Assembly (NCBI GenBank): GCA_019135865.1
Contig: JAGVVD010000045.1
Location: forward strand, 1 to 37,869
From: Elusimicrobiota bacterium
Lineage (GTDB): Bacteria; Elusimicrobiota; Elusimicrobia; Elusimicrobiales; UBA9959
Direction: 5' to 3'
DNA length: 37,869 nt
The position numbers and the translations under genes are program-made. Of the stretch, positions 1,606 to 29,662 are shown one piece after another (the first letter of the stretch is position 1; each line of letters starts with the position of its first letter). The notes beneath the pieces were generated by a model. That model made no database searches, was not told the origin of the DNA, and was given only the letters and a program-made list of their open reading frames with translations.

Positions 1606-1876
1606 GATGGCGGAGAGCCGCGAGCGCTCCGAATGGGGGCGGCTTTCCAATCTGATGGCGCTGGTCGCCAACGCGCACCGCGACCCGAAGCGGCATTCGA
1701 CGGTGCGCCCCGAGTCGTTCAACCCCTACGCGGGGCGGGACAGGTACAGCGAGCTGACCAGGCGTAAGCGGGCGAAGGCTCCGCTGACAGTGCTGCGCGA
1801 CGTGTTCTGCAGGAAGGACAGCCGCCGTGAGATTGTGAGGACGGAGAGGATAGACAGGCCTGACGACAGGAGGTGA
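1606..1876 (+). CDS. Tail assembly chaperone, T-like C-terminal frame
   Basis: This open frame is -1 relative to the preceding gene and continues past its stop. From ATG 1606 it encodes 90 aa; the conserved stretch starts earlier, near 1550, with CPDPFKLREL, then RLSNLMALVANAHRDPKR and ESFNPYAGR. That order (LREL, a helix, ANxHRDPK, FNPY) matches what I recall as the 3-prime frame of chaperones in planctomycete and verrucomicrobial prophages. It may be made by a -1 frameshift from the upstream frame or by separate initiation at 1606, which has GAGGGAG about 9 nt upstream. The stop at 1874-1876 lies just after the tape measure gene's Shine-Dalgarno, so translation is tightly packed. Confidence 0.6.
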
Positions 1877-1881
1877 CGGGA

Positions 1882-4332
1882 ATGGCAGGGGCTAGCGGTA
1901 ACGTGAGGGCAGGACGCGCCTTCGTGGAGCTTATGCTCGACCAGACCCGCCTGGAGCGCGGGCTGAAGGCGGCGCAGTCGAAGCTGAAGAGTTTCGGCGC
2001 GTCCGTCATGTCGATGGGAACGCAGATGCTCGCCATCGCCGCCCTTGCGGGCGCGCCGCTGGCGATGGCAACGAAGACTTTTTCCGACTTCGATGACCAG
2101 ATGAGGACTGCAAGGTCCGTCTCGGGGGCCACCGCCACGGAGTTCCGGTCGATGACCGAGACCGCCGAGAAGCTGGGGCGCGAGACCTCCTACACTGCGA
2201 AGCAGGTCGCCGAAGGCATGACCTCGCTGGGGCGGATGGGCTTCAAGGCGGACGAGATAAACGCCGCAATACCAGCCGTCCTCGACCTGGCGAGGGCCAC
2301 GGGCACGGAGCTCGGCGACGCCGCCGAGATCGCGGCGAACAACATGCGGGTGTTCGGCATCGCCTCATCCGACATGGCGAAGGTATCCGACATCCTGACC
2401 GCCACGGCCAACTGGAGCGCGCAGACGCTCTCCGACCTGGCGGAGGGGCTTAAGATGGCTGGGCCGCAAGCCGCTGCGGCGGGCGACGACATCAGGAACG
2501 TCTCTGCAGCGCTGGGGGTGCTTGCGAACATGGGCATAAAGGGGTCGCTCGCGGGCACGGCGCTCCGCAAGGCGTATTCGCAGTTCGCGAAGCAGGACGT
2601 CCAGAAGAAGCTGGCCGCATTGAACATCTCGACGGTGGACGGAAACGGCAACCTGCGCTCGATGCCCGCCATCATGGCCGACATCGCGCGGGCGATGAAC
2701 TCCATGCCGACCGCCCAGAGGCTCTCCTTCGCGGAGAGCATCTTCGACCTGCGCGGATCGCTGGCAGGTCTGCAGCTGGGCGGAAACATCCGGCAGCTGA
2801 ACGCTTTCATCCAGAAACTAGGCAAAGTGGACGGAACGGCGAAGAACACCGCGAAGGCGATGGACGCGGGAATCGGCGGCGCGCTCCGCCGCCTGCAGTC
2901 GGCCTTCGAGGGTGTCCAGATATCCGTTGGCCGCGTCCTGGGCGAGGCGATTGCCCCGTATATGGACAGGATTTCGGCGATGCTGAACCGCCTGGCCGAA
3001 TGGGCGGCCGCCCACCGCGAGGTCATTGTGGCCACCGCGAAGGTCATCGGCATCGTCGCTGCGGCGGGCGTGGCGCTGGTCGGGCTGGGGATCGCCTTCA
3101 AGGCAATCGCCTTCGCGGTCGGCACGTTGAACACGCTCTTCACTGTGATGAAGGTGGCAGTGCTCGCGCCGATCGGCGCGGTGAAGCTTCTCATCGGCGC
3201 ATATCATCTGCTGACGGCCGGGATTGCCATAACAAAGACAGTCGCACTTGCCTGCTGGGCGGCGATATCCTCGCCAGCCTTCCTCGTCGGGGCTGCGCTC
3301 GGTGCGATCGTCGCCGTGGTGTGGAAGCTCACGGGGGCGTGGGACATTTGCGCCGACGCAATCGGCGGATTCTGGGGGGACTGCACGACTGCCTTCAAGG
3401 AGATTGGCGAGATATTCGGCGAGACGTGGGACGTCATCAAGACCGCCATCGGTTCGGGCGACCTCGCGGGGGCGGCAAAAGTCGGTCTTGCGGCGCTGAA
3501 GCTCATCTGGCTCAAGGGCACATATCCCATCTCGAAGGCGTGGATCGAACTGAAGAACCTGCTTGCCGACGCCTGGACGATGGTCGTTTACGGCATCCTC
3601 AAGCTGGGGAACAACCTGTGGTACGGTCTGCTGACGGGGCTTCAGCACGTGGGCGACGCGCTGGCGGACGCCTGGGCGGGCATCTGGAACGGCATTGTGG
3701 ATACGTTCGAAAGCACCTGCAAGTGGATCGAGAAGCAATGGTACAAGCTCGCCACGGTGTTCGACAGCAAGCAGGTGACGGACGCCGCGCTGCAGACGGT
3801 CGAGGAGAAGTACGCCAGAGCCAGGAATGAACGGGAGCGCAAGTTCGCCGCCGCCGTTAACGGACGCAGGGAGAGGCGCGAGTCGCTCTCAAGGGAATGG
3901 AGCGCATCCAACGCCTCCATAGACCAGGCGCGTGACCAGGCCATCATGGAAAACCAGGGAAAATATTCCGCCATGATGGACGACGCCCAGGCGAAGATCG
4001 GAAAGGCGACCGCCGAGTGGCGGGATGCGATGGAGGCTGTCAAGAGAACCGCCGCCGAGCGGGCGGCCAAGGCCGAGGACGCAAAGGGGAAGACGGCGCA
4101 GGCAGTCCGCGGCACAAGGCAGGCCGCCGAGCGGGCGGGACTGTCAGCCGACAGGGGCGGCGAGCGCTCCTCCGCGGGGAGCTGGAGCCTCCGCGAGCTC
4201 AAGGGGATGTTCGGCGACAAGGACTACGATTCGCGGACGGCCTCGGCCAGCGAGGCGAGCGTCCGCCTCCAGCAGGAGACGAACAGATATCTGAAGAGGA
4301 TGAGCGCCCAGGCGCTTACATACGGGGGATAG
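1882..4332 (+). CDS. Phage tail tape measure protein
   Basis: This protein sets tail length and lines the tail tube. The TP901-type tape measure domain covers about residues 70-330, including FDDQMRTARSVSGATATEF, TSYTAKQVAEGMTSLGRMGF and LAGTALRKAYSQF. Several hydrophobic segments follow between residues 380 and 490 (VIGIVAAAGVALVGLGIAFK and two more), then a long charged helical, coiled-coil-like region from about 620 to the end. At 816 aa it would suit a tail of moderate length. ATG 1882 is chosen because ACAGGAGG ends 8 nt upstream; the GTG at 1873 in the same frame would leave no ribosome site. The next gene starts 4 nt after its stop. Confidence 0.92.
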   Translation: MAGASGNVRAGRAFVELMLDQTRLERGLKAAQSKLKSFGASVMSMGTQMLAIAALAGAPLAMATKTFSDFDDQMRTARSVSGATATEFRSMTETAEKLGRETSYTAKQVAEGMTSLGRMGFKADEINAAIPAVLDLARATGTELGDAAEIAANNMRVFGIASSDMAKVSDILTATANWSAQTLSDLAEGLKMAGPQAAAAGDDIRNVSAALGVLANMGIKGSLAGTALRKAYSQFAKQDVQKKLAALNISTVDGNGNLRSMPAIMADIARAMNSMPTAQRLSFAESIFDLRGSLAGLQLGGNIRQLNAFIQKLGKVDGTAKNTAKAMDAGIGGALRRLQSAFEGVQISVGRVLGEAIAPYMDRISAMLNRLAEWAAAHREVIVATAKVIGIVAAAGVALVGLGIAFKAIAFAVGTLNTLFTVMKVAVLAPIGAVKLLIGAYHLLTAGIAITKTVALACWAAISSPAFLVGAALGAIVAVVWKLTGAWDICADAIGGFWGDCTTAFKEIGEIFGETWDVIKTAIGSGDLAGAAKVGLAALKLIWLKGTYPISKAWIELKNLLADAWTMVVYGILKLGNNLWYGLLTGLQHVGDALADAWAGIWNGIVDTFESTCKWIEKQWYKLATVFDSKQVTDAALQTVEEKYARARNERERKFAAAVNGRRERRESLSREWSASNASIDQARDQAIMENQGKYSAMMDDAQAKIGKATAEWRDAMEAVKRTAAERAAKAEDAKGKTAQAVRGTRQAAERAGLSADRGGERSSAGSWSLRELKGMFGDKDYDSRTASASEASVRLQQETNRYLKRMSAQALTYGG

Positions 4333-4336: not shown

Positions 4337-5152
4337 ATGGTCAGGATTGAACAGCGGTATGACGCCAGGGCGATGTCCATGGACGCGGACGGGGAATTCA
4401 CGGAGGTTACCGTCCAGTTTCTGGCGGACGGCGCGGCGGACGAGGCCGAGGCGCTGGAGGCAGTCAGGGAGGAAGCGCCCGAGGAATGGGGCCAGCTTCC
4501 GATGGAGTCCCTTGAGGTGTCCTCCCGCGACGGGGACAATGTGTTCACCGTCGAGGTGAAGTACAAGAACAAGGAATCCTCGACATCCTCCTCCAGCGAG
4601 AGGGAAGAGGAGGAGACCACGGTGTCCTTCGACTGCGGAGGCGGCACGATGCATCTCACGCACAGCTACGAGCAGCGCATCGTGTACGGCAAGAAGAAGG
4701 CGGGCGGAGCGATCGGCTGGAACGGGAAGACCGGCGCGGAGATGGCCATCTCGGGCGTGGACGTGCCCACGGCCCAGCTTCGGGAGACCTACACCAAGGT
4801 CATGCGCCTCTCGAAGATAACCACCTCCTACAAGCGGAAGGTCGCGAAACTCGTCGGCAAGGTGAACAGCGGCACGTTCAAGGGCTGGAGCAAGGGCGAG
4901 GTCATGTTTTTGGGCATGAGCTACTCCTGCCCCGCCAGGAAATCGACGAAGGTGCTGGTCTCGTTCAACTTTGCGGTCCAGCCCAACGAGAGCGTGACCA
5001 TAGCGGGGCACAAGGTGGAGAAGAAGGGGTTCGAGTACGCCTGGGCGCTCTCGAAGACACTTGACGACAACGGGACGCCCAAGGCGGACGTGGAGGCCAT
5101 CTACGTGGACCAGGTCTGCCGGTACGACAGCTTCTCGGTACTGGGAATATAG
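4337..5152 (+). CDS. Conserved phage tail protein of unknown function
   Basis: This 271-aa protein follows the tape measure gene. Residues about 75-95 are a Ser/Glu-rich linker, after which comes a compact domain containing GGGTMHLTHSYEQRIVYG, IGWNGKTGAEMAISGVDV, VGKVNSGTFKGWSKGEVMFL and a C-terminal KGFEYAWALSK...VYVDQVCRYDSFSVLGI-like end. I recognise the arrangement GTxHxT...GVDV...GRVNxGxFKGxxxGEVLFLG...GWEYLW from prophages of the Planctomycetes-Verrucomicrobia group, where it also sits just after the tape measure gene. Gene order suggests a distal tail or baseplate part. No enzymatic motif is visible and no precise function is claimed. Confidence 0.6.
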   Translation: MVRIEQRYDARAMSMDADGEFTEVTVQFLADGAADEAEALEAVREEAPEEWGQLPMESLEVSSRDGDNVFTVEVKYKNKESSTSSSSEREEEETTVSFDCGGGTMHLTHSYEQRIVYGKKKAGGAIGWNGKTGAEMAISGVDVPTAQLRETYTKVMRLSKITTSYKRKVAKLVGKVNSGTFKGWSKGEVMFLGMSYSCPARKSTKVLVSFNFAVQPNESVTIAGHKVEKKGFEYAWALSKTLDDNGTPKADVEAIYVDQVCRYDSFSVLGI

Positions 5153-5161
5153 GAGGTTTCC

Positions 5162-5968
5162 ATGGCGTTCTACGGCGACGTGTCGCCGGGCGAGGTGTTC
5201 AGGCCGAGCGCGGCGCTATCCAACGACATACGGCACTTGCTCAACGGCCTCAACGGCTTCGGCGGAAACCCGTTCTGCGCGAATGGCGCGGGGACGGTGA
5301 GGATTCAGGCCTACAACGCGACGGGAGGCGAAATCAAGGCGGGGACGGCGGTGAACTTCGACGACTCGAAGAAGATGTCGGGGGATGCGGTCCCCATGAA
5401 AACGTTCACCGACCCGAAGAAGCCCTGGGGCGTGGTGACGCAGAAGCTGGCCGAGAATGAGGCTGGCGACTGCTTCATCAGCGGCCCCGTCGCAGTGGCC
5501 GTCAGCGGCTCGGGCGACTACGCCCAGCCGACCGCCGGCAATCCCTCGGTGTTCACGAGGGGCGCGGAAGGAGCGCCTGTGCTGTGGGCGTCCGGCGGAA
5601 AGGGGCTGGTGAACCTCGGCGCTGGGACGCCCGAGAACTACGACGGCCCCTTCGCCATCTCCTACGACGCCGAGAAGAAGCAGTTGAAGGTCAAGGCCGG
5701 ATACCTCACGAGGAACGGCGAGTTCCTCTCCATTCCCGAGAAGGAGATCGAGCCGAAGACAGGCACTCTCTGCGTGAAAAGCGAACTGGACGGCGGCGAG
5801 TGGAGCGAACCTGAAATCGTGTTCGAAACGCCATCGCAGTTCCGCTACCCCATAGGTCACGTGAAGAAGACGGGGGACGGCGACAAGATGTCCGTCGCCG
5901 TGTGCAGCTACCGTGTTCCCGTGGCGGTCATCCTGGCGTCGAAGATCTGCAGCGAGGAGAACGACTGA
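5162..5968 (+). CDS. Phage tail or baseplate structural protein
   Basis: This 268-aa protein has TAGGAGG 4-9 nt before its ATG. The N-terminal 45 residues include RPSAALSNDIRHLLNGLNGF, which could be helical. The rest is rich in Gly, Thr and Asp, with alternating hydrophobic residues typical of beta-structured virion proteins: a segment beginning IKAGTAVNFDD and a PWGVVTQKLAENEAGDCFIS stretch that resembles the beta-barrel surface proteins of phage heads and tails. It lies between two other tail-module genes and its stop overlaps the next start. The exact structural role cannot be read from the sequence. Confidence 0.5.
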   Translation: MAFYGDVSPGEVFRPSAALSNDIRHLLNGLNGFGGNPFCANGAGTVRIQAYNATGGEIKAGTAVNFDDSKKMSGDAVPMKTFTDPKKPWGVVTQKLAENEAGDCFISGPVAVAVSGSGDYAQPTAGNPSVFTRGAEGAPVLWASGGKGLVNLGAGTPENYDGPFAISYDAEKKQLKVKAGYLTRNGEFLSIPEKEIEPKTGTLCVKSELDGGEWSEPEIVFETPSQFRYPIGHVKKTGDGDKMSVAVCSYRVPVAVILASKICSEEND

Positions 5969-6414
5969 TGGCGGAAGGACAGGAAGAGAGGAAGCCCGAC
6001 ATACGGGCGTGGCTCCACGCGAAAGGCAGGGAGCTTGTCATCGGGCGGAAGACGGGGAGGATCATCCTCTGCTGGGTCTGCCCCTGCTGCAAACCGCGGG
6101 TCATCGCAAGATGCGTCACCAACGGTTCGAGCGAGGCGACGAAGACCTGGTGGCTTACCGCCTGGCAGGGGGACTACGTCGGCTTCCCGGGCGGGAGGTG
6201 GAGGCTCCGCGACGTCGGCGAGGCGCACCACAACAACAGCTCGGCGTGGTGCTCCGGCTCGATATACAACAACGGGACGATAGACAGCAAAGGCAGACTC
6301 GTAGGACTTCCCGAAAAGTTCGTCTCCAGCTACAGCTACAACGGCTACATGGAGCTGCAGCAGGGATGCGTGATGCCCGACGGCTCGGTCAAATGGCCCT
6401 GTCCCAACGGATGA
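5968..6414 (+). CDS. Small cysteine-containing phage protein
   Basis: This 148-aa protein is translationally coupled to the upstream gene through a TGATG overlap. An early cysteine cluster (CWVCPCC at residues about 39-45) plus later single Cys residues could bind a metal ion or form disulfides in an extracellular virion part. The C-terminal half is rich in Trp, Tyr, Ser, Asn and Gly, with WWLTAWQGDYVGFPGGRWRL and SAWCSGSIYNNGTIDSKGRL, as in carbohydrate-contacting or fibre-associated proteins. I do not recognise the family. Its position suggests a tail-tip or fibre accessory protein. A longer reading that starts upstream overlaps the previous gene and has no ribosome site. Confidence 0.55.
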   Translation: MAEGQEERKPDIRAWLHAKGRELVIGRKTGRIILCWVCPCCKPRVIARCVTNGSSEATKTWWLTAWQGDYVGFPGGRWRLRDVGEAHHNNSSAWCSGSIYNNGTIDSKGRLVGLPEKFVSSYSYNGYMELQQGCVMPDGSVKWPCPNG

Positions 6415-6420
6415 TTTTTC

Positions 6421-6442
6421 AGAAAAACACATCTGTTTTTCT
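6421..6442 (+). terminator. AT-rich hairpin between tail genes
   Basis: AGAAAAACA at 6421-6429 pairs perfectly with TGTTTTTCT at 6434-6442 around a CATC loop. It starts 6 nt after the upstream stop and is unlike the GC-rich hairpins elsewhere. There is no separate T-run after it, so it may pause or stabilise the transcript rather than end it. Confidence 0.45.
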
Positions 6443-6507
6443 ATAAAAGCGAGGCGGAAACGGACAATTCCGTCGTATTTCCAGCAGGATTTTCCAAAGG
6501 AGGCACG

Positions 6508-7251
6508 ATGTTCGACTTCAACGAAGGAGATTCACGGTATTCGCACATGCCGTTCGCGGCGTATGGCGGAGACGGAAATCCGCGGGAATTCTGCTGCATC
6601 CAGCGCGACGGCCTGTGGAAGCTCCACTGGCGCAAAGGCGGCAAGTGGCGGCGAATCCAGACGGGACTGCCCGAGGACGCCACCGAATGCGGACCGACCG
6701 CCGAATGGGAGGACGGCATGTGGAAGGTTTCATTCGTCGCGGGCGGATGGAAGGGGGACCGCCGCTTCCGCCTCTATCGGATGTACGGGCTTGACGCCCA
6801 GCCGATGGCGCAGGGCTTCGCCGACATCGGCTTCGTCCGCAAGAACACGGTGGCGATGGCGGGGCGGCGCGGGCCGATTGTCATCAGGGAGTCGGATCGG
6901 ACAGTCACGCTGGAGATTCCGGAGGCGGAATTCCTCTACCGCCTCTCCTACGACCCGCAGAGGCCGAACAGGCTGCTCATTTCCGGGCAGACGAAGGGTG
7001 GCGGCATCTTCTCATGGGCGTATGCGCCGGGGATGGACGAACTCGTGGCGCTCACGGACGGCGGCATGCCTGCCTACAAGTGCGCCCTCTGGGACGGGCA
7101 GTGCTTCTACGCGGAGAGGATCGCGGGCTTCGAGGAGCGCAGGATCGTCAGGGCGGAACACCTGGAGGTCACCCGTCTCGAAGCGAAGGAGCACATCGTC
7201 GAGACGATCGGATACGGAATGAATCTGAACATGCCGGAGGAGTTTGAATGA
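6508..7251 (+). CDS. Predicted beta-rich phage protein, function unknown
   Basis: This 247-aa protein has AAAGGAGG 5-9 nt before its ATG. It repeats a pattern of Trp-containing beta strands: LWKLHWRKGGKWRRIQTGLP, a following MWKVSFVAGGWKGDRRFRLY unit, then LYRLSYDPQRPNRLLISGQT and FSWAYAPGMDELVAL. This strand-turn-strand rhythm suggests a small beta-propeller or beta-sandwich, as in some tail-associated proteins. There is no signal peptide and no recognisable catalytic motif. The stop overlaps the next ATG by 4 nt (ATGA), so the two are co-translated. The function is unknown to me. Confidence 0.6.
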   Translation: MFDFNEGDSRYSHMPFAAYGGDGNPREFCCIQRDGLWKLHWRKGGKWRRIQTGLPEDATECGPTAEWEDGMWKVSFVAGGWKGDRRFRLYRMYGLDAQPMAQGFADIGFVRKNTVAMAGRRGPIVIRESDRTVTLEIPEAEFLYRLSYDPQRPNRLLISGQTKGGGIFSWAYAPGMDELVALTDGGMPAYKCALWDGQCFYAERIAGFEERRIVRAEHLEVTRLEAKEHIVETIGYGMNLNMPEEFE

Positions 7252-7607
7252 GCTGCGACTGCCATGGGAAAAGCGGTGTTTCGGTCGGGCGCACGTCGCC
7301 CTACGACCAATGCACCATGTGCGCGAAGAAGCACATCGTCAAGGCGTGGAGCCTGTTCAACGAGTTCACATACACCGATGACAACCGCGACGCAATGACG
7401 GGGCAGCTCCGCCTCGCTGCCGACCACCTGATGTTCGACCACGTGGAGACGGCAAGGCTGGCGCGGGACCTTGCGATCCTCCTGGAGGAGAACATGGATG
7501 CGGAAATCGGCGACCGCTGGAAAACGTTGCTCGTTGCCATGCGGAATGATTTCAACGGGGAACATCCCGATGCTGTGGAAAGGCTTGAGAGGCTGAAGGA
7601 GGAGTGA
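7248..7607 (+). CDS. Small CxC/CxxC protein, possibly metal-binding
   Basis: This 119-aa protein starts with MSCDCHGKSGV and then SPYDQCTMCAKKHIVKAWSL, giving four closely spaced cysteines (CxC and CxxC) and a His within the first 30 residues, a likely zinc or metal site. The remainder is helical, with a conserved-looking LRLAADHLMF segment near residue 60. I recall similar Cys-N-terminal helical proteins (CxCxG...CxxCxKKHLxxAW...AADHL) in phage and gut bacterial genomes, with no known function. It overlaps both neighbours (ATGA upstream, TGATG downstream), so it belongs to the tail operon. Confidence 0.6.
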   Translation: MSCDCHGKSGVSVGRTSPYDQCTMCAKKHIVKAWSLFNEFTYTDDNRDAMTGQLRLAADHLMFDHVETARLARDLAILLEENMDAEIGDRWKTLLVAMRNDFNGEHPDAVERLERLKEE

Positions 7608-9040
7608 TGCAGGAGACGATTTTCTATGTGGCGGCGGGCGAGACGCTCGGCGTCGTGCGCGACTACGCCAACGCCAAGACGATGGCGGCGCCGACGCTGG
7701 TGCGCGGCGTGTCCGCGCTGCTGCGGATGCGGCTCTTCGCGCACCGCGAGGGGCTTGAGCCGTACCCGATGGAGGCCCTGGGGGGTATCGTCCGCTGGCA
7801 GTGGGCGATGGACACGGACTTCAACGAGGCGACCGCATACAAGCTCCAGGCGGACAACGCGGGGATAACCCTTTCCGAGGTCATGGACGACATCGACGGA
7901 GACGAGTACACGTACACCGAGGTGTCCATCCCGATGCCTGAGATGAACACGGTGGAGCTGGCCGAGTGGATCGGGACGGACAAGACCAAGAACGGCCTAC
8001 ATGGGGAACTGGTCGGCTACGACGCCACGGGCGCGGAGGTGTACATCCTCCAGGTGGAGAACTTCACATTCCGCAACCGCATCACCAGCATCGGCTCGCC
8101 CACGCCGGTCAGCGCGGACTATCTGACGGCAAGCCAGGTCGCCGCGCTCATAGCGGCGGGCCTCGACTGCCAGTTCAGCCAGGACGGCGAACACTGGCAT
8201 CCCGGGCAGGACGAGGCGGACACCTGGCTGCGCCTCCGCGTGAGCGGCTCTGGCGGCCCCTGGAGCGACGCCATCCTGCTCCCGACGGGGGCGACTGGCC
8301 CGCGCGGGCGCGATTCCTATATGTATGTGGCATACGCCAGCAGCTCCGGCGGCGACAACTTCTCCCTTGTCCAGGCGAACAACCTCAAGTGGCGGGCGGA
8401 AATCCACACGGACGCGGAGATGGAGGAACTGACAGCCGCCGACTTCGCGGGCAGGTGGGTGAAATACATCGGCGACGACGGGACGGGCGTGGGCGACATG
8501 AAGGCCTCCGTCTATGACACGGACGGGGACGGCGTGGTGGACCGCGCCGTCAGGGCTAACACGGCGGACGCGGTCAACTGGGCCGATGTGCAGAGCCGCC
8601 CCGAGACCTTCGCGCCGTCGGCGCACGGCCACGGGATGGCGGACATAACCGACCCCGTGCGGCAGCGGACAAGGAGCGAGACCAATCCGAACACCCTGTA
8701 TCTCGACATTCCGGTCCTGTTCAACTCGTCCACGCAGAGCAGCGCCACACTGGCCATCGATTTTCCCCGCATACTGGAAACGCACGGAGGCACGGCCTAT
8801 TCGGGCAAGTCGGGCGACTGCCTCACGTGGGAATACCATGTGAAATGCTCGGCGGAAGTGACATCCGTGGCGGTCGGAGGGCTTGAGAGCACGATGGAGG
8901 CAATAAGCATCCCCGAGCGCCTGCGCCTCGTGGACAATTCGGCGACATGGCATGTGTTCGCAATCAGGGGACTCTACAAGTCGGGCGCGGCGAACAGCCT
9001 CCGCCTGCAGGTGAACTACTGCTACAGCTACGGGGCGTAA
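7607..9040 (+). CDS. Tail fibre protein A
   Basis: This 477-aa fibre-like protein has a bipartite build. The N-terminal 160 residues are probably the virion-attachment part. A middle module reads GLDCQFSQDGEHWHPGQ, then a Trp-rich strand and a short collagen-like TGATGPRG. A second module holds DSYMYVAYASSSGG and ELTAADFAGRWVKYIG. Both modules recur in the fibre gene at 11802. A SAHGHGMADITD motif, frequent in phage fibres (HxHxMxDIT), lies near residue 345. ATG 7607 is preferred over the GTG at 7604 because it gives the better spacing to AAGGAGG and a TGATG coupling to the upstream stop. Host-receptor contact is inferred from architecture. Confidence 0.75.
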   Translation: MQETIFYVAAGETLGVVRDYANAKTMAAPTLVRGVSALLRMRLFAHREGLEPYPMEALGGIVRWQWAMDTDFNEATAYKLQADNAGITLSEVMDDIDGDEYTYTEVSIPMPEMNTVELAEWIGTDKTKNGLHGELVGYDATGAEVYILQVENFTFRNRITSIGSPTPVSADYLTASQVAALIAAGLDCQFSQDGEHWHPGQDEADTWLRLRVSGSGGPWSDAILLPTGATGPRGRDSYMYVAYASSSGGDNFSLVQANNLKWRAEIHTDAEMEELTAADFAGRWVKYIGDDGTGVGDMKASVYDTDGDGVVDRAVRANTADAVNWADVQSRPETFAPSAHGHGMADITDPVRQRTRSETNPNTLYLDIPVLFNSSTQSSATLAIDFPRILETHGGTAYSGKSGDCLTWEYHVKCSAEVTSVAVGGLESTMEAISIPERLRLVDNSATWHVFAIRGLYKSGAANSLRLQVNYCYSYGA

Positions 9041-9041: not shown

Positions 9042-10619
9042 ATGAACATACCATATCCATATAATAGGATCGGCGCCGGGGGCGACGTCGCAGAAGGCGG
9101 CGCGGTCCTCGGCGAGCGGGGCGTGTTCACCTGGCTTAGGGACGGGAAGCTGTACCAGAAGGCGGTGGAGCTGGACGGCGTGTTCCTCAACTCCGCGAAG
9201 GTGCGCTCAATGGTGGTGCTCTCCGACGGAATTGCGAGGCACACCACCGTCCATGCTGGCGGCACGCAGACAGTCTCCGGCGGCGGTCTCGCCGAAGGCG
9301 TGGTGGTCAACTCGGGAGGAAGGGCGTACATCTCCTCGGGGGGAAGCGCGGAGGACGTCTCCGTGAACATGTACGCATACGTCACCGCATACAGCGGTGC
9401 CTCCGTCAGCGGATGCGAGATCAACTCCAGCGGGATGGTCTGCGTGGCAGGCGGCGCGGAGGGTGCGGGCGTCACGGTCTCGGCCTACGGAAGCCTCTAC
9501 TGCGAGAGCGGCGCAAGGCTGAACGGCTGCGTCCTCTCGTCCAACGGGAGGCTCTCCGCGGGGAGCGGCGCCGACATCGCGCACCTCACCGTCTGCCCTG
9601 GCGCGGGATTCTCCTGCATCCAGGGCATGTCCGCCGCGAACATATCCGTCATGTCGGGCGGCTACCTCTACGCGAACTCGGGGGCGAAATGCCTGGATGC
9701 GGCGCTGGCGCAGGGCGGGCATGTCGTGCCATACGTCATGGGGCACGACGAGGAGACCGTCCTCACGGGGAGCGGCCCCGGCGGAGAGTTCTCCGTATCC
9801 AACGGCACGGCGGCGGGATTCGTCCTGGACGGCGGCGCATCGTTCCCGCTCTACTACTACGGCAGCGCCACAAGGACAACCCTGTCCTCCGGCGGCTCGA
9901 TGTTCGTCAGCTTCGGCGCGGTCGCTGCGGGAAACACGGTCTGCCCCAACGGGCGCGTGTTCGTCTATTCGGGCGGCACGGCGCGCGACACGGAAATCCA
10001 GCCTGGCGGCTCGGTGTTCGCGGACTTCAGGGGGACGTGCCTCGACACGGTGGTCTCGTCTGGAGCCCAGATATTCGCCAGCAACTACGGCGAGTGCTCC
10101 AGGACGGACATCCGCCAGGGCGCATACGCCTACGCCTCCATCGGCGGCCGCATCGTCTCCGCGACGGTGGCGGGAAACATCATCGCCTCCAGCAATGCCG
10201 TCCTTTCGGCACTGGACATCCAGTCCGACGGGTATGTCTCGGCCAGGCGGGGATGCACGGCTGTCGCCATAAACGTCTCAAGCGGCGGACGGATCTGGCT
10301 CAACGACTACACGGATGGAGGAGACATCAGCATCGAATCGGGCGGAAGCGCGTGGCTGCTGAACATGGGCACGTATTCGGGGCTGTATCTCGGTGTGGGA
10401 GCCTTCTGCTCGGCGTCTGCGTACATCACCCTTTCGGACGTATCCGTCGGCGAGGGCGCGAAGCTCTATCTATCGACCTACACCACGGCCACGGAAGTAT
10501 CCATCGCGTCCGGCGGCACGATCTGGCTGGGGAGCGGCGGAAGCGCGCTGAACGTTACAAGCGCGGAAGGAGCGGTGATAAGCGTGAACAATGGAGGACA
10601 TGTGGAATATGCAGAATGA
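9042..10619 (+). CDS. AIDA-type strand-loop-strand repeat tail fibre or adhesin
   Basis: This 525-aa protein is almost wholly built from about 19-residue strand-loop-strand repeats (for example ARHTTVHAGGTQTVSGGGLA, then VVVNSGGRAYISSGGSAEDV), roughly twenty of them. This is the AIDA-I/TibA passenger pattern that folds as a long right-handed beta-helix. In bacterial autotransporters these Ser/Thr-rich turns are the acceptor sites for O-linked heptose. Here there is no signal peptide and no C-terminal autotransporter barrel. The first 60 residues (GAGGDVAEGGAVLGERGVFT, a virion-anchor-like start) resemble fibre N-termini, so it is probably a phage fibre shaft. The last codons overlap the heptosyltransferase gene, arguing for paired expression and modification. 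Confidence 0.8.
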   Translation: MNIPYPYNRIGAGGDVAEGGAVLGERGVFTWLRDGKLYQKAVELDGVFLNSAKVRSMVVLSDGIARHTTVHAGGTQTVSGGGLAEGVVVNSGGRAYISSGGSAEDVSVNMYAYVTAYSGASVSGCEINSSGMVCVAGGAEGAGVTVSAYGSLYCESGARLNGCVLSSNGRLSAGSGADIAHLTVCPGAGFSCIQGMSAANISVMSGGYLYANSGAKCLDAALAQGGHVVPYVMGHDEETVLTGSGPGGEFSVSNGTAAGFVLDGGASFPLYYYGSATRTTLSSGGSMFVSFGAVAAGNTVCPNGRVFVYSGGTARDTEIQPGGSVFADFRGTCLDTVVSSGAQIFASNYGECSRTDIRQGAYAYASIGGRIVSATVAGNIIASSNAVLSALDIQSDGYVSARRGCTAVAINVSSGGRIWLNDYTDGGDISIESGGSAWLLNMGTYSGLYLGVGAFCSASAYITLSDVSVGEGAKLYLSTYTTATEVSIASGGTIWLGSGGSALNVTSAEGAVISVNNGGHVEYAE

Positions 10620-11814
10620 ACGCAATGACGGCAGGCCCGCATATGCCCCTCCGCCGGAAATTCCGGTGAAGGAGGCTGTCGAGGGCATACGACTCGACTT
10701 CAACTGCGGCCTCCGTGTCTCCTTTCCGAAGGACGGCGGCAGATACCGCCTGCTGTTCCGGGACCTGGATTCAGGCATCGTGCTCTACTGCATGGACGCG
10801 GAGCCGGGGAGCATGGTCGGCAGCTTCAAGCGCTACTACACGCGCTTCGGCATCGAGATATACCGCCAGGGCGATCCTGACACGCCGATATTCGCCCACG
10901 ACCTCGACCTCCGTGACAGGGACGTGCTTATCCAGATCCCGCAGGGGGCCCTTGGCGACGCCATCGCATGGTTCTCGTATGCCGAGCGGTTCTGGAAGAA
11001 GCACAAGTGCAGGCTCTTCGTGGCGATGCAGCCTGAAATCGCGGAAATCTTCAAAAAACAGTACCCCGAAATCACCTTCATCACGATGGACGAGGCAGCA
11101 AGGCTGAAGCCATACGCGACCTACCGTCTCGGCCTGTTCTTCGGTGGCGACACGGACGGGCAGCCCTTCGACTTCCGAGAGGCGGGGCTGCACAGGACTG
11201 CCGGGCTGATTCTCGGACTGGTGGGCGACGAACTGGCGGACGAGCCGCCGAGGGCAGACCTCTCCGCGCCAAGGCGCATCGCAGAGCCGTACGCGGTCAT
11301 CGCGACACAGGCGAGCTCCCAGTGCAAATACTGGAACAACCCTTCGGGCTGGCGCGAGGTGGTGAAGCACCTCAAGTCGAAGGGTCTCCGAGTCATCTGC
11401 ATCGACAGGTTCGCGGAATACGGATCGGGCATCGTGTTCAACCGCATCCCCTGGGGGTGCGAGGACTTCACCGGCGACCTTCCGCTCCAGGAGAGGATCG
11501 ACATCATCAAGGACGCGGAGGTGTTCATCGGTCTCTCCAGCGGCCTCTCGTGGCTTGCGTGGTGCTGCAATGTCCCGGTTGTGATGGTCTCGGGGTTCAC
11601 CGACGCGGTGAACGAGTTCCATACGCCATTCAGGGTGCAGAACCCGAGGGTGTGCCATGGCTGCTGGAACGACCAGAGGTGCGAGTTCGACCATTCGGAC
11701 TTCCTCTGGTGTCCGCGGAAGGAGAAGATGGAGGACAAGTTCGAATGCACGAAGGCGATTACGGCGAAGATGGTCATTGAAAAGACGGAGGAGGCCCTCG
11801 CATGGAGGAAGTGA
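10591..11814 (+). CDS. Strand-loop-strand O-heptosyltransferase (BAHT/TibC-like)
   Basis: This 407-aa glycosyltransferase fits the bacterial autotransporter heptosyltransferase family (Aah, TibC), which moves heptose from ADP-heptose to Ser residues of strand-loop-strand repeats in the cytoplasm. Visible features are an N-terminal beta-rich domain (about 32-92); GALGDAIAWF at 119-128 with D123, the likely catalytic Asp; GLHRTAGLILG near 199; SSQCKYWNNPSGWREVV at 242-258 with K246 in the nucleotide-sugar region; and FIGLSSGLSWLAW near 312. A C-terminal CxxC-X15-C-X11-C cluster (C355, C358, C374, C386) matches the family's iron-binding site. The gene overlaps the 3-prime end of the AIDA-repeat gene by 29 nt. 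ATG 10609 is a possible later start; GGAGG lies between the two candidates. Confidence 0.9.
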   Translation: MEDMWNMQNERNDGRPAYAPPPEIPVKEAVEGIRLDFNCGLRVSFPKDGGRYRLLFRDLDSGIVLYCMDAEPGSMVGSFKRYYTRFGIEIYRQGDPDTPIFAHDLDLRDRDVLIQIPQGALGDAIAWFSYAERFWKKHKCRLFVAMQPEIAEIFKKQYPEITFITMDEAARLKPYATYRLGLFFGGDTDGQPFDFREAGLHRTAGLILGLVGDELADEPPRADLSAPRRIAEPYAVIATQASSQCKYWNNPSGWREVVKHLKSKGLRVICIDRFAEYGSGIVFNRIPWGCEDFTGDLPLQERIDIIKDAEVFIGLSSGLSWLAWCCNVPVVMVSGFTDAVNEFHTPFRVQNPRVCHGCWNDQRCEFDHSDFLWCPRKEKMEDKFECTKAITAKMVIEKTEEALAWRK

Positions 11815-13667
11815 ATGTCAATCTCATGGTCAGCGGGCTGACTGCCACGCTGGCCGACGACTCGCGGAAGGAGACGAGCGTCCTGCCCGTGATGTTCCGC
11901 GGGATGCCGACGGAGCTGAAGGTGAAGCTGCTCAACGGCAACGGCTCCGCATATCCCGCTGCGCAGCTGGAGGGGCTGACCTGGCGCATGGTCGCCTCCA
12001 ACGTCTGGAACCCCTCCGCCACGCCGCTCCTTGAAAGCACCGACATAACGGTCGAGGGGAGCACCATCCGGGTGGCCATCGAGGAGACGGACACCAAGGA
12101 GCTCGCCGCCGTCATAGGCACGATGGAGGCCGTCACGCTGGGAGCAGAGATATACGGGATTCCGGCGGGGGCGGACAAGCCCTCGGTCATCCTCCAGTTC
12201 GGGCTGAAGGTGCGCAACCGCCGCGCGGGGACGGGCGAGCCGATCCCCGTGGCTGATGACGGCGTGACCGCTACGCAGGTCAAGGCGCTCCTCTCTGCGG
12301 GGATGGAGGTGCAGTGCTCCCGCGACGGCGAACACTGGGAGACGCCCGCAGCGGAGCACATGCAGGACTACCGCTGGCACAGGCTGCGGAACACCGCGCT
12401 GCCCGGTGCCGAATGGAGCGAGGCCATCCCGCTGATTGTCGGCGCGACCGGCCCCGCCGGAAGCATCGGCATAGGCTCTGTCACCAAGGGCGACGAGCCC
12501 TCCGTCACCAACAGCGGAACGGCTGAACACGCGGTGCTGGACATCGTGCTGCCCAAGGGCGACCAGGGGGCGTCCGCAAGCGTGGCGGTCGGAGCGACGG
12601 CAACTGGCGACCCCGGAACCGCAGCCAGCGTGGAGAACACTGGGGACGAGCACAACGCCGTCCTGCGCTTCACCATCCCGCGCGGCGCGGACGGCACGGT
12701 TGCCTTCGAGAGCCTCACCGACGCCCAGCGGCTCTCGCTCAAGGGCGACAAGGGCGACGCGGCCACCGTCGCGGTGGGCGGCGTCACGACGCTTGAGCCT
12801 GGCGGGGAGGCTGAAGTCTCCAACGCGGGGACAAGCCATGACGCCATCCTCCAGTTCGCGATTCCGCGCGGCGACACGGGCGCGAAGGGCGATAAGGGGG
12901 ACAGGGGCGAGCAAGGGCCGCCAGGCCCCGCCTGCTCGCTCACAATCGGCACAGTGACGGCCACGGAGACGGGGACGCCGCCCACGGCCAGCGTCACGGG
13001 CGAAGCGCCGAACCAGACGCTGAACCTCACGATGCCCAAGGGATTCAAGGGCGACAAGGGCGACAACGCCACCATCTCCATCGGCAACGTCTCGACGGGA
13101 GCGGCTGGGACGGCGGCGGCAGTCACGAACCGCGGCACGGCGGTGAACGCCGTCCTGGACTTCACCCTGCCGAGGGGCGACAAGGGCGATTCCACATACC
13201 TCCACGTGGCCTGGGCGAGGGACTCCCTCGGCACGGGCTTCTCGCTCGTCCCTTCCGACGACCGCAAGTACCGCGCAGAGCTGCTTCTGCCGGAACACCA
13301 TGACAACCTGACAGCGGAGGACTTCGCGGGCTGCGCCTGGACAAGATGCGGAGGACGGGACGGCGTCTCCTACGGCTCGGTCGCCGCCACGGACGGAAAC
13401 ACCGTGATACCCGAGGTTCGGCGGCTCGTGTTCGCCAACGCCACGCTTACCGCAGGCACGGACGGCGAGGCGACCGTCTCCTTCAACGGAGGTGGCGGCT
13501 GTGGCGGGGACGAAGCCTTCAACGACATCCTGATGATACGGTCGGCGCTTAACGCGTCCCGCTCGGGAGGAGGAAGCCCAGGCGGGAACGCGGGGGACAT
13601 CGAGGAGACCGGCGAAGCCTACTCCGAGCCGTCCCAGAGCGACAGCGGCCTGACAACCTGGCCATAG
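11802..13667 (+). CDS. Collagen-like tail fibre protein B
   Basis: This 621-aa fibre has an N-terminal domain (1-150) unlike fibre A, then a module shared with it (VQCSRDGEHWETP ... ATGPAGSIG). The shaft follows, with four to five copies of an about 45-residue repeat of the type IGxVTTxExGxxAxVxNxGTxxxAxLxFxIPRG, joined by short collagen-like Gly-X-Y runs (LKGDKGDAATV, TGAKGDKGDRGEQGPPGPAC). The second shared module, DSTYLHVAWARDSLG ... LTAEDFAGCAWTRC, follows near residue 465. The tail is Gly/Ser/Asp-rich. Such repeats form trimeric phage shafts. GGAGG lies 7-12 nt before ATG 11802, and the start overlaps the heptosyltransferase end. Confidence 0.8.
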   Translation: MEEVNVNLMVSGLTATLADDSRKETSVLPVMFRGMPTELKVKLLNGNGSAYPAAQLEGLTWRMVASNVWNPSATPLLESTDITVEGSTIRVAIEETDTKELAAVIGTMEAVTLGAEIYGIPAGADKPSVILQFGLKVRNRRAGTGEPIPVADDGVTATQVKALLSAGMEVQCSRDGEHWETPAAEHMQDYRWHRLRNTALPGAEWSEAIPLIVGATGPAGSIGIGSVTKGDEPSVTNSGTAEHAVLDIVLPKGDQGASASVAVGATATGDPGTAASVENTGDEHNAVLRFTIPRGADGTVAFESLTDAQRLSLKGDKGDAATVAVGGVTTLEPGGEAEVSNAGTSHDAILQFAIPRGDTGAKGDKGDRGEQGPPGPACSLTIGTVTATETGTPPTASVTGEAPNQTLNLTMPKGFKGDKGDNATISIGNVSTGAAGTAAAVTNRGTAVNAVLDFTLPRGDKGDSTYLHVAWARDSLGTGFSLVPSDDRKYRAELLLPEHHDNLTAEDFAGCAWTRCGGRDGVSYGSVAATDGNTVIPEVRRLVFANATLTAGTDGEATVSFNGGGGCGGDEAFNDILMIRSALNASRSGGGSPGGNAGDIEETGEAYSEPSQSDSGLTTWP

Positions 13668-13677: not shown

Positions 13678-15774
13678 ATGCTTTTCTGCAACATCGACTT
13701 CAATGTCGTCTACATCGATCCGGGCATCGCGTCGGCGGGGGACGGATCCACGCCCGCGCTTGCCCTTGTGAATCTGCCTGAGGCTTCGGCTCTCGCCGAC
13801 AGGACATGCTACATCATCCGCAGGACGGATGCCAGTGTGTCCTGCTCCCTTCCGTCCGGGACGAACACCTCGCTTGAGCACCTGATTCTCATGGGGATGC
13901 CGCGACCGACGGACACGGCATACGCATTCGTCCCCGACGAGGCGAAGGCCGCCTGGGGGACTGACACGGCCCAGTACGCGCGGATATCGATCCCGAACTC
14001 CTCCTCGACTCTTTCAATGGCGAACCTGCGGACGTTCCTGATGAACCGCCTGCACCTGTTCCGCACCTGCACGTCGGCAAGCCAGTACATGATCCAGTCC
14101 TACCAGACGGGCGAGTACAGGGGGACCTTCGCGGTGGAGCACTGCAAGTTCGGCGTCCAGGGCGTCGAGCCGGGCAGCGACGCCTGGGCAGGCCCCGCAT
14201 ACGAGGACAACGCCATGTACCGCTACCTCTACTTTGGCTTCCTGAGGTATCTGCGCATCAAGGACTGCGACATCGACTTCCGCCCGTACAGCAGCAGCGA
14301 CTACGCCGCCATATACTGCCATTTCCCGGACATGCTGGACGTGGAGGACACGAGGGTGAATATGCTTCCAGGCTCATCCTCCAGAGGCTCGTATGCGCTG
14401 AACTTCAGGAACTCCTACGAGCAGCAGGGCACGGAGGCGGTCGTGACGGGCCTCTCGCTTCGCCTTGTGGCAAACGGAACGGAAAGCAGGTACTTCGCGG
14501 GGGGAATCAAACTCGGAAACCACCTTTCCACCAGGGTCACAGGGCTGGCGGCGGCCAGCGTCATACCGCAGGGGATGAGAACGCCGACCGACGAATACAC
14601 GCTGTACCAGAACATTGCAAGCTTCGAAGGGCTGCAGGACTTCACAATGCGGGGCATCACTCTCGACCTCCCGCATTTCTGGCGATGCAACTGCCAGCTG
14701 CTGTATTTCTACGGCAACTGCTACTCCAGCTCGCCAGGCATAGAGCGGGAAATATCCGACGTGTCCATAAGGCTCGGAGAAAGCGCGGAGACGGCCGTCG
14801 GAAACCCTCCTTCCTACGACGACTACAGGAGCACCAACGAGTACAACTACTACTATCCGCTCAATGTCTGCATGGGAAGCTCAAGCAGCTCGTACTACGT
14901 GAAGCCATGCAGGGTGGATTGCGTGTCCATTGACGCGCCGCGCTGGAAGGCCGCGTACCTCGAGCACTGCCGTCTCACGAACTCCTCCTTCCGCGGACTG
15001 GTGAACATCCAGAGGACCATGGCCGACATCACGTCACTCTCGACCTGGTTTCCGGGATGCGCGATGAAAATGGGAAGCAACAGCCACGCCAGGGTCGGGA
15101 CGCTTTCCGTCAACATGGAGAACCCGTCCTATCCGTACAACTACGACGCGGCGATCGAGCGGGACAGGGGCAGCTGCTCCTACTTCGTGGAGGAAAGCAA
15201 CGCCATGCCCGAGCAGACGAATCTGTCCGGCTCGGGCGTCGGCCAGCAGTACACGGCCGCCTGCGCATCGGAAGGCGAGACGGGACACTACACGCTGAGG
15301 ACGCAGAACATCGCTGTGGACACATGGAACGTCCGCAGGACGGGCGGCGCTTCCGCCGCGCTGAAGCTCTGGAACGACAAGTGGAACAGCACGGGGATGG
15401 CGGTCCTCGGGCGAAAGCCGTTCAAGGGACGTCTCCTCGCGGCGGCCACGCCCGGGCGGCATGTCCTCAAGTGCCACGTGGCCTGGAAGAACTACTCTAA
15501 CGAGGAGGAGCTGAACCGACGCCTCATCATAACCGCCACTACGGACGAAGGCGGCTCCCCGCGCGTCTGGTGCAGCTCCGTCAACGGACGATGGGCGGAC
15601 GACCCCGATTCGGTATGGGAGAACGATTCGGGCCTTGTGCAGAAGGTGCTTGAGATGCCCATCGACGTCGAGGAGGCGGGGATGGTGGACGTGAGGCTCT
15701 ACTTCTCATGGTATTCGGCGGACGGATTCCTCTACGTGGACCCGGCGTTCACGCTGGAGCCGCAGGAACAGTAG
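13678..15774 (+). CDS. Predicted beta-helix receptor-binding protein, paralog 1
   Basis: This 698-aa protein has TAGGAGG before its ATG. It opens with NIDFNVVYIDPGIASAGDGS, a DxNxVYVDPxxxxGGDGxTPxxAL pattern typical of right-handed beta-helix surface proteins. A long middle of short polar strands rich in Tyr, Ser, Asn and Asp follows, then a jelly-roll-like C-terminal domain with LYFSWYSADGFLYVDPAFTL near the end. The gene at 18644 encodes a clear paralog with matching N-terminus, middle and C-terminus. Polysaccharide or receptor binding is likely. An enzymatic depolymerase role is possible, but no catalytic residues can be assigned. Confidence 0.65.
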   Translation: MLFCNIDFNVVYIDPGIASAGDGSTPALALVNLPEASALADRTCYIIRRTDASVSCSLPSGTNTSLEHLILMGMPRPTDTAYAFVPDEAKAAWGTDTAQYARISIPNSSSTLSMANLRTFLMNRLHLFRTCTSASQYMIQSYQTGEYRGTFAVEHCKFGVQGVEPGSDAWAGPAYEDNAMYRYLYFGFLRYLRIKDCDIDFRPYSSSDYAAIYCHFPDMLDVEDTRVNMLPGSSSRGSYALNFRNSYEQQGTEAVVTGLSLRLVANGTESRYFAGGIKLGNHLSTRVTGLAAASVIPQGMRTPTDEYTLYQNIASFEGLQDFTMRGITLDLPHFWRCNCQLLYFYGNCYSSSPGIEREISDVSIRLGESAETAVGNPPSYDDYRSTNEYNYYYPLNVCMGSSSSSYYVKPCRVDCVSIDAPRWKAAYLEHCRLTNSSFRGLVNIQRTMADITSLSTWFPGCAMKMGSNSHARVGTLSVNMENPSYPYNYDAAIERDRGSCSYFVEESNAMPEQTNLSGSGVGQQYTAACASEGETGHYTLRTQNIAVDTWNVRRTGGASAALKLWNDKWNSTGMAVLGRKPFKGRLLAAATPGRHVLKCHVAWKNYSNEEELNRRLIITATTDEGGSPRVWCSSVNGRWADDPDSVWENDSGLVQKVLEMPIDVEEAGMVDVRLYFSWYSADGFLYVDPAFTLEPQEQ

Positions 15775-16886: not shown

Positions 16887-17681
16887 ATGTCGCAGATTCT
16901 GTTCTATACCGGCACGAAGGCCCAGTTCGACGCTCTCGCCACCAAGAACGAGAACGCTCTCTACTTCTTGACCGACGTGCGGAAGCTCTACAAGGGGACG
17001 ACTCCGTTCTCCCAGCCCGTGCAGGTCGTCACCGAATACCCCGCAATCGGGGACTTCGGGACCCTGTACGTCAACACTGTCCTCAAGGAGGCGAAGGTCT
17101 GGGACGGAACGGCGTACACGGTGGTGACACCGGCAAGCGTCACCACCATCGGCAATGCCCCGACCAACGACCAGGTCCCGACCGCCCTCGCGGTCAAGAA
17201 CTACGTCGACGGCCAGATCACCCTGGTGAACACTGGCGTGACGGGCGCGGTCGCCAACGTGTCCTATTCCAACAAGTGCATCAGCGTCCAGAAAGGCGCT
17301 GGCGACCCCGTGACCACCGCGCTGGCGGGGCTGGTTGACGGGGCGTCCTACGACGGCTCGACCGGCGTGCTGACGCTGACCACCAACGGCGGCACGCCCG
17401 TCACCGTGAACCTGCCCGTGGAGAACTTCCTCTCCGCGGCGAGCTTCAACGCCTCGACCAACGTGCTGACGCTGACCCTCACCAACGGCGAGACCGTGGA
17501 CGTCAGCCTCGCCGACCTCGTCGACACCTACACGGGCGCAAACGGGGCGACCGCAAATGTCAGCATCGCAGCCAACGGCGCGGTATCGGCCAGCGTGAAT
17601 GTCTCCGCCCAGGCGGGGAACATCATTGAGGCGAAGTCCGACGGCATCTACGCCGGTCTCGAGTGGCAGACTCTCGCATAG
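16887..17681 (+). CDS. Phage structural protein with repeated beta units
   Basis: This 264-aa protein has AAGGAG about 11 nt before its ATG. The start QILFYTGTKAQFDALATKNE, with ALYFLTDVRKLYKG after it, is a common phage fibre or neck protein N-terminus that often anchors fibres to the virion. The rest is two or three Ala/Thr/Val/Asn-rich beta units (SYDGSTGVLTLTTNGGTPVT and the related SFNASTNVLTLTLTNGETVD) that look internally duplicated. The C-terminus ends LEWQTLA, like that of the preceding protein. It is probably a fibre or fibre-connector protein within the tail-fibre operon. Confidence 0.6.
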   Translation: MSQILFYTGTKAQFDALATKNENALYFLTDVRKLYKGTTPFSQPVQVVTEYPAIGDFGTLYVNTVLKEAKVWDGTAYTVVTPASVTTIGNAPTNDQVPTALAVKNYVDGQITLVNTGVTGAVANVSYSNKCISVQKGAGDPVTTALAGLVDGASYDGSTGVLTLTTNGGTPVTVNLPVENFLSAASFNASTNVLTLTLTNGETVDVSLADLVDTYTGANGATANVSIAANGAVSASVNVSAQAGNIIEAKSDGIYAGLEWQTLA

Positions 17682-17693
17682 CGGAGGCACGCC

Positions 17694-18644
17694 ATGCCCG
17701 CATTCACCCCATGCATAGGGACGCGGGCGCAGGTGGACGCCAGACCAGTGTGCGACGGGCAGTTCCTCATAGCGGCGGACACGGGCGAGGCCTTCATCGA
17801 CTTCAACGGAGTCCGCGTCCAGTTGTGCGGACAGGGAGGCAGCGGCGTCCAGCCGCAGGAAACCGGATGGTGTTCCACCCTCACGGACTGGATTGTCGTG
17901 AATTCGTCGATTCTCGTCTCGGATTCCGTGAAAGGCGGGGGACCAGGTGCTGGAATCCTCAATACGCCGGACATCCGGCTTCTGCAGGAAACAGCGGCGT
18001 TCCTTACATCATACACGGTGGTGAACGGTCTGATACGCGCCACGGCATCAGAAGACGATGAGGAGGAGACAACGGAGCTGAACACGCCTGATCTCCTGCT
18101 TCCGCAGACAGATGACGTCTTCACGACCCACTATGCAGTGGTCGAAGGGCGGCTTCTCGTCTCCGAGTCAGTGCCTGGAGGCGGACCGGGGAACGGCATC
18201 CTTGCCACGCCCGCAGTCGGGTTCGGGCTGTCCGACGGAAGCCTGACGACCGCGTATTCCGTCGTCAACGGACTGCTTCGCGTCTCGGAGACCGTTGCCG
18301 GAGGAGGCGACGGCGCGGGAATCGCGGGCACGCCCGCCGTCGTCCTGGATGTTCCTGACAACAGTCTGGCGACCACATACACTGTGGTCAACGGACGGCT
18401 TCTCGTCTCGGAATCAGTGCCTGGAGGCGGCCCCGGGAACGGTGTCGCCAATGCGCCGTCCGTCGCGTTCGTGCACGAGGACAACAGCCTGAAGACCACA
18501 TACACTGTGGTCAACGGACGGCTCCTCATTTCGGATTCTGTTCCAGGCGGCGGACCTGGGGAAGGCGTCCTCAATGCGCCAGCAGTCGAATTCCCCGTTT
18601 TCACGGATGAACTGGAAACCTCATATTCAGTCACGGAGGCATGA
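17694..18644 (+). CDS. Tandem 40-residue repeat fibre-like protein
   Basis: This 316-aa protein has a 50-residue N-terminus (FTPCIGTRAQVDARPVCDGQ, similar in kind to fibre anchor regions), followed by six tandem repeats of 40-41 residues starting near residue 64. The consensus is YTVVNGRLLVSESVPGGGPG, then NG(V/I)xNxPxVxFxxxDxSLxTT. The repeat in which DDEEETTEL replaces the Gly-rich part is the most divergent. Repeats 3, 5 and 6 are nearly identical, also at the nucleotide level around 18137-18166, 18383-18420 and 18500-18535, implying recent duplication. Gly-Gly-Gly-Pro-Gly turns between paired strands suggest a fibrous beta shaft. I know no named family for it. Confidence 0.7.
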   Translation: MPAFTPCIGTRAQVDARPVCDGQFLIAADTGEAFIDFNGVRVQLCGQGGSGVQPQETGWCSTLTDWIVVNSSILVSDSVKGGGPGAGILNTPDIRLLQETAAFLTSYTVVNGLIRATASEDDEEETTELNTPDLLLPQTDDVFTTHYAVVEGRLLVSESVPGGGPGNGILATPAVGFGLSDGSLTTAYSVVNGLLRVSETVAGGGDGAGIAGTPAVVLDVPDNSLATTYTVVNGRLLVSESVPGGGPGNGVANAPSVAFVHEDNSLKTTYTVVNGRLLISDSVPGGGPGEGVLNAPAVEFPVFTDELETSYSVTEA

Positions 18645-29168: not shown

Positions 29169-29178
29169 CCGGGGGACG

Positions 29179-29228
29179 CGGGGCGGGCCACCGCCCCGCA
29201 GGGGACGCCGCGGACGGCAGCGTCCCCG
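29179..29228 (+). terminator. Two GC-rich hairpins after the amidoligase gene
   Basis: GCGGGGCGG at 29179-29187 pairs with CCGCCCCGC at 29192-29200, and GGGGACGC at 29202-29209 pairs with GCGTCCCC at 29221-29228, both without mismatch. The following GCCGCCTTTTTCAAG offers a late T-run at 29234-29238. They probably end or stabilise the amidoligase transcript. Confidence 0.55.
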
Positions 29229-29280
29229 CCGCCTTTTTCAAGCAGCAGAGGCGAAGAAATAATCTTTTCTTTTTCGCGCA

Positions 29281-29650: not shown

Positions 29651-29662
29651 GGGAGGTTAATT

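Follow-up and report, generated by a model that had tools for sequence, protein, structure and literature searches.

A phage tail operon encodes an AIDA-type repeat protein next to an O-heptosyltransferase that probably modifies it

The left half of the window (the whole 37,869-nucleotide stretch of DNA analysed here, contig C34 of a 59-contig, 2.95-Mb genome) is a siphovirus tail operon in which the gene for an AIDA-type beta-helix repeat protein is followed immediately by a gene for a BAHT family O-heptosyltransferase. We found that both proteins belong to these families, that the active site of the enzyme is conserved and that the pairing is maintained across a distinct clade of phages. Neither a leader nor a barrel is evident in the repeat protein, and apart from the four phage copies no repeat protein of this kind was found in the host genome. 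The best reading of these data is the one offered by the original prediction, that in the host cytoplasm the phage adds O-linked heptose to a tail fibre of its own. We regard this reading as supported and likely; the chemistry and the virion location are inferred, without virion or biochemical data. No report of such a phage pair was found in the open-access literature that we searched, which is not proof of absence, and a prophage study that included a Lentisphaerae prophage did not mention heptosyl genes.

Genomic setting of the pair

The tail operon lies on the + strand (Table 1). Its run of tail-module genes has the same gene order as five related loci (L080, L086, L087, L185 and L189) and, in part, C55/L010, and this order recurs in related IMG/VR contigs and in contigs of Lentisphaerota MAGs. 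The window enzyme has its nearest relatives in Lentisphaerota MAGs, which makes a host from this phylum probable. On three other contigs of the same genome, the 478-aa gene is likewise followed by a divergent version of the pair or of the repeat gene. On a sister contig of this genome, C55, terminase, portal, head-protease, neck, major tail and tape-measure genes precede the pair. The original prediction placed the pair among tail-fibre genes, and this held, given the tape-measure gene, the collagen-like fibre gene and the structural genes of C55. Non-structural flanking genes would have refuted it; the genes flanking the pair are phage structural genes.

Table 1. Features of the tail operon, with positions in the window
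Feature	Position	Strand	Evidence
Tail tape-measure protein (819 aa)	1873..4332	+	phrog_28 274.5 bits; Pfam PhageMin_Tail 152.8 bits
Conserved phage tail-module genes without a known function, separating the tape-measure gene from the fibre genes	4337..7607	+	
Members of the tail-module run	4337-5152, 5162-5968, 5913-6446, 6508-7251, 7248-7607	+	
Putative tail-fibre/baseplate protein (478 aa), immediately 5' of the repeat gene	7604..9040	+	Synteny, weak family matches
AIDA-type strand-loop-strand beta-helix protein (525 aa), putative tail fibre and heptose acceptor	9042..10619	+	Pfam AIDA, TIGR04415, AlphaFold
BAHT family O-heptosyltransferase (407 aa; likely start 10609, 401 aa)	10591..11814	+	TIGR04414, TibC 4RAP, conserved residues
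Collagen-like tail fibre (621 aa)	11802..13667	+	PHROG minor tail/tail protein families up to 98 bits; N terminus homologous to 7604-9040
Further putative fibre/structural protein (698 aa), paralogous to 18641-20806	13678..15774	+	L188 and L189 homologues match both
Further tail-end genes	16887..20806	+	Synteny: kept 3' of the pair in L012 and L014
Phage_tail_C domain protein	16887-17681	+	Pfam PF24243 25.1 bits (cut-off 23.7)
Tail-end protein (721 aa)	18641-20806	+	Synteny

The 478-aa protein ends 1 nt before the repeat gene. Its AlphaFold model is poor (pLDDT 52), so its identity as a fibre protein rests on synteny and on weak matches to PHROG tail and host-range families. Residues 12-237 of this protein are 35% identical (E 2.4e-20) to the N terminus of the collagen-like fibre, encoded at 11835-12467. 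A single-sequence scan found no relatives of the 478-aa protein; an alignment scan succeeded.

Several genes of other kinds share the phage contig. Genes for the large and small subunits of an anaerobic ribonucleotide reductase lie at 21329-23991, and an amidoligase gene (PF12224) lies near a gamma-glutamyl cyclotransferase-like gene (PF06094) at 28281-30184. A Type II cytosine methyltransferase and a convergent SinI-like restriction endonuclease form a restriction-modification pair at 31990-34041, and an Mrr-type nuclease gene is found at 36661-37590.

The repeat protein and the enzyme

The original prediction that the two genes encode an AIDA-type repeat protein and an O-heptosyltransferase held, with profile matches far above the cut-offs for both families. 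The repeat protein scored 74 bits against Pfam AIDA (cut-off 27) and 61.7 bits against TIGR04415 'O_hepto_targRPT' (cut-off 30). Its AlphaFold model is a continuous beta-helix with a mean pLDDT of 87.9 and low confidence in residues 1-33 only, and it has the AIDA-type strand-loop-strand repeats forming a beta-helix that are expected of self-associating autotransporters. The top PDB matches in a fold search were Antigen 43 (Ag43) and TibA 55-350, the latter a structure from crystals obtained after glycosylation by TibC; TibA was also the first match by sequence. A fold search in a viral library returned only generic beta-helices, and tblastn against INPHARED phages gave no match, although the low-complexity filter may hide matches. 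The N terminus of the repeat protein is conserved in its orthologues, and no counterpart of it was found in other fibres.

Serine makes up 12.4% of the repeat protein, whose loops include NSGG, SSGG, ESGG and ASGG. In TibA, the modified residues are serines, not threonines, and one of them lies within an NSGG stretch (PMC4358343). Among the four copies in the genome, serine was kept at 16 of 31 loop serine sites, compared with 96 of 202 for all loop sites, which is uninformative on whether acceptor serines are conserved.

The repeat protein was also predicted to lack a signal peptide and a barrel, and this held by hydropathy, domain search and model. Judged by hydropathy only, there is no leader-like hydrophobic stretch at its N terminus. 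The top 13-aa hydrophobic stretch in the first 80 residues scored 0.6-1.35 in phage repeat proteins (n = 12) and 1.1-1.9 in chromosomal Lentisphaerota adhesins (n = 12), and most chromosomal adhesins of the same order have a leader-like stretch; the ranges overlap, however, and hydropathy is not a dedicated prediction of signal peptides. The phage repeat proteins are short, and neither the domain search nor the model of the window protein revealed a C-terminal beta-barrel; the protein ends with the last strands of the helix. Export through a barrel encoded elsewhere would have counted against the prediction, and a family-by-family search of the host genome found no PF03797 autotransporter barrel. 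With no evident leader or barrel and no PF03797, export of the repeat protein is unlikely, an inference from sequence alone. Within the host genome, the four phage copies are the only genes with TIGR04415 repeats, so that no host adhesin of this family remains as another possible substrate.

The enzyme matched TIGR04414 'hepto_Aah_TibC' with 504.9 bits (cut-off 200) over residues 23-400, TibC_1st with 49.7 bits and Glyco_transf_9 with 41.7 bits, and aligned to TibC (PDB 4RAP) with 452 bits over residues 18-395. The predicted GALGD, QCKYWNN and CxxC-X15-C-X11-C features are all present exactly. In TibC, an aspartate serves as the catalytic base, threonine, lysine, arginine and tryptophan residues bind ADP-heptose, and cysteines bind iron (PMC4358343). 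From the TibC and family alignments, TibC D110, K230, R286 and W305 correspond to D123, K246, R302 and W321 of the window enzyme, and the iron-finger cysteines 339, 342, 358 and 370 to C355, C358, C374 and C386; the one change, from T226 to S242, is conservative. A search of INPHARED with the enzyme matched four records at about 34%.

A rival reading is that the enzyme is a decayed or inactive passenger and that the fibre works unglycosylated. In its favour, two enzyme copies are broken: the copy on C55 (L010:1-634) is frameshifted in the N-terminal domain, with the C55 repeat gene still open, and the reading frame of the L082 copy (L082:831-2108) is split. This damage might mean that the modification is dispensable, or it might reflect assembly errors. 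However, the window copy keeps its catalytic, donor-binding (apart from the Thr to Ser change) and iron residues, and its dN/dS against relatives is about 0.17-0.26, lower than the 0.31-0.45 of the repeat protein among the copies in its own genome. We therefore consider the passenger reading very unlikely.

The position of the enzyme start affects how the two genes are joined. The original prediction gave an overlap of 29 nt, which follows from choosing the first ATG, at 10591. This value is corrected here to a likely 11 nt: a start at 10609 is favoured by the start position in relatives and by a GGAGG ribosome-binding site in the last codons of the repeat gene. The overlap is 8 nt in L080, L083, L185 and L011, and in several members of the clade the ribosome-binding site of the enzyme gene lies within the last codons of the repeat gene.

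As for the donor, P300 restricts TibC to ADP-D,D-heptose, whereas AAH has S294 at this position and takes both epimers (PMC4358343). The equivalent residue in the window enzyme is S316, as in AAH, so by analogy it probably accepts both heptose epimers, with the caveat that activity itself is inferred from sequence alone. In the host genome, the HldE kinase domain scored 359 bits, over its cut-off of 345, GmhA scored 207.5 bits, just under the curated cut-off of 209.45, and the HldE adenylyltransferase domain scored 172.2 bits, under the curated cut-off of 181.5. With the kinase over its cut-off and the other two borderline, a supply of ADP-heptose by the host is likely, not certain. A cluster at C48:39804-42032 (loci L172, L218 and L220) in the host genome holds another HldE-I, HldE-II and GmhA-like set with weaker matches, perhaps a different nucleotide-heptose pathway.

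Conservation and divergence across the phage clade

The original prediction called for a search for the pair in other tailed phages, and the order proved to be conserved across the phage clade. Among 20 loci of this clade, two begin too near the enzyme to be judged; in 17 of the remaining 18, the repeat gene lies immediately upstream of the enzyme. This count includes C55 and L014, which the automatic pairing count missed owing to frame artefacts and which were added from inspection of the loci, and some loci share one genome, so that they are not fully independent. The gap between the 478-aa gene and the repeat gene is -4 to +3 nt across the clade. Outside the phage clade, an adhesin-type gene was found downstream of the enzyme at 44 loci, upstream at 6 and on both sides at 1, and was undetected at 36.

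In a tree of 156 enzyme rows, the phage enzymes form one group (17 rows, support 97) separate from the BAHTs of chromosomes and plasmids; the G002 and G003 enzymes, encoded on Lentisphaerota chromosomes, fall on the bacterial side. The tree is midpoint rooted and makes the separation visible, but not its direction or age. Twelve chromosomal enzymes of a sister family, which are outside the tree, are 68-73% identical to the G002 enzyme and 44-48% identical to that of the window.

A second rival reading is that the true target of the enzyme is another fibre, such as the collagen-like one, and that the repeat protein is a mere neighbour. Two observations favour it: a distant BAHT-like clade in other phages sits upstream of collagen-type fibres, and one 29-kb contig of the phage clade (L015) has the enzyme without an AIDA-type gene, which implies that the enzyme can have another target. 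Against it, of the 16 loci with at least 1.8 kb visible downstream, only 6 have a collagen-like gene after the enzyme, far from the regularity with which the repeat gene precedes it, and the repeat protein belongs to the very family that BAHTs modify. The repeat protein thus remains the preferred acceptor, and another fibre an unlikely one. At L015:3604-9463 and in L221, the phage-clade enzyme has terminase and portal genes as neighbours, and the contig encodes no AIDA-type protein.

The repeat protein changes more quickly than the proteins encoded beside it. A comparison of L080 with L185, two close relatives, gave 92% identity for both the 478-aa protein and the enzyme and 67% for the repeat protein; between L080 and L083, the enzymes are 89% and the repeat proteins 64% identical. 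Rapid change in a single structural protein flanked by slowly changing ones is a pattern shown by receptor-binding fibres. The divergence may reflect a receptor-binding fibre, although relaxed constraint would look similar.

A related phage, L190, has four fibre genes with a common N terminus (L190:8989-15773) after a shortened protein of the 478-aa type. One of the four carries AIDA-like repeats, which at 25.2 bits fall slightly short of the Pfam cut-off (27), and so combines such repeats with an N-terminal domain common to other fibres of this phage. This fibre had no tblastn match among INPHARED phages, and no BAHT was found on the 98.5-kb contig, a point against the proposed heptosylation.

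These data also bear on a third rival, in which the repeat protein is a lysogenic-conversion adhesin that is glycosylated and reaches the host surface by an unknown route. In support of this rival, all of the closest experimentally studied relatives of the repeat protein are surface adhesins, and chromosomal relatives from the same order look secreted (AIDA, Pertactin and OmpA domains in L175; a hydrophobic leader in L195-L206). By contrast, the repeat protein has no evident leader or barrel in a genome without a detected PF03797, its position in the tail operon and its few-nucleotide spacing are conserved across the clade, and L190 places AIDA-like repeats on a common fibre N terminus. We consider the adhesin reading unlikely and prefer that of a tail fibre.

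Proposed mechanism and known systems

In the mechanism that we propose, the repeat protein would serve as one of the tail fibres: a beta-helix that lacks an export barrel and that, where an adhesin would have its signal peptide, begins with a short phage-specific segment. The enzyme gene, next in line, is probably translationally coupled to it, and the enzyme would form a dodecameric ring by analogy with TibC. In the host cytoplasm, the enzyme would transfer heptose from the host ADP-heptose pool to serines on the helix loops, and the decorated fibre would then be assembled into the tail. The serine sites are inferred, as is the role of the sugar. TibA that lacks glycosylation has lower stability and altered oligomerisation, and its adhesion is abolished, an effect that the authors call indirect (PMC3835316). 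By analogy with these findings, a first guess is that the glycan stabilises the helix and sets its conformation; it may also shield the fibre or tune receptor binding. Each of these roles is possible, and sequence cannot decide between them.

The closest known systems are the TibC/TibA and AAH/AIDA-I pairs of E. coli (PMC4358343, PMC3835316), which share with the window pair the enzyme family with its catalytic and iron-finger residues, the strand-loop-strand beta-helix type of substrate and the two-gene operon. Their reaction, like that of the window pair, is expected to take place in the cytoplasm, before the substrate leaves. In the E. coli plasmid comparator, however, the enzyme gene precedes that of an adhesin with both leader and barrel. 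The order is reversed in the window, where the pair belongs to a phage tail operon and the substrate has no evident signal peptide or barrel. Among Lentisphaerota relatives (G002, G077-G160), BAHT-adhesin pairs on the chromosome combine the same two families in the same bacterial order, but their enzymes are the 44-48% identical ones, which group with bacterial BAHTs where they are in the tree, and their adhesins have a hydrophobic leader, with OmpA/Pertactin domains in G002.

Glycosylated phage virions are known in few cases, such as the capsid and tail tube of mycobacteriophages. The mycobacteriophage virion proteins that carry glycans (Freeman et al. 2023, cited in PMC12619734) resemble our proposal, but their glycans are on the C termini of capsid and tail-tube proteins, whereas we propose heptose on loop serines of a beta-helix fibre, added by an enzyme type known from adhesins.

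A more distant likeness is found in environmental phages (among L023-L077; Microcystis phage Mel-JY01), whose BAHT-like fused glycosyltransferases have QCKYWNN and usually the cysteine finger and in many cases adjoin a tail fibre, as the window enzyme does. These domains form a separate clade (62 rows, SH-aLRT 100), are often fused to other glycosyltransferase domains and lie beside fibres that are collagen-like, not AIDA-type: of the fibres picked downstream, 22 of 23 have collagen and 12 of 23 Peptidase_S74. The collagen count covers picked fibre-like genes only, from loci fetched by enzyme similarity rather than the whole clade, and about a third of the loci have no long downstream gene or a different one. 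This clade can be taken as a lead only.

A bolder reading, which the evidence leaves slightly less likely than not, is that one phage clade heptosylates a fast-diverging AIDA-type fibre and that, with the distant BAHT-like clade, heptosylation or related glycosylation of fibres could be a widespread, unrecognised step of tail maturation. If the main reading is true, an adhesin-modifying enzyme acting on a receptor-binding fibre would link phage adsorption to the glycosylation of bacterial adhesins, it would be testable whether adhesins and fibres have traded repeat and enzyme modules, and phage infectivity may depend on the ADP-heptose pool of the host.

In IMG/VR, the large fused glycosyltransferases at L047:4903-8439 and L030:3760-11165 end in a BAHT-like domain and lie upstream of collagen/Peptidase_S74 fibres. 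The related domain in Mel-JY01 (PP395634) is annotated as an FkbM methyltransferase.
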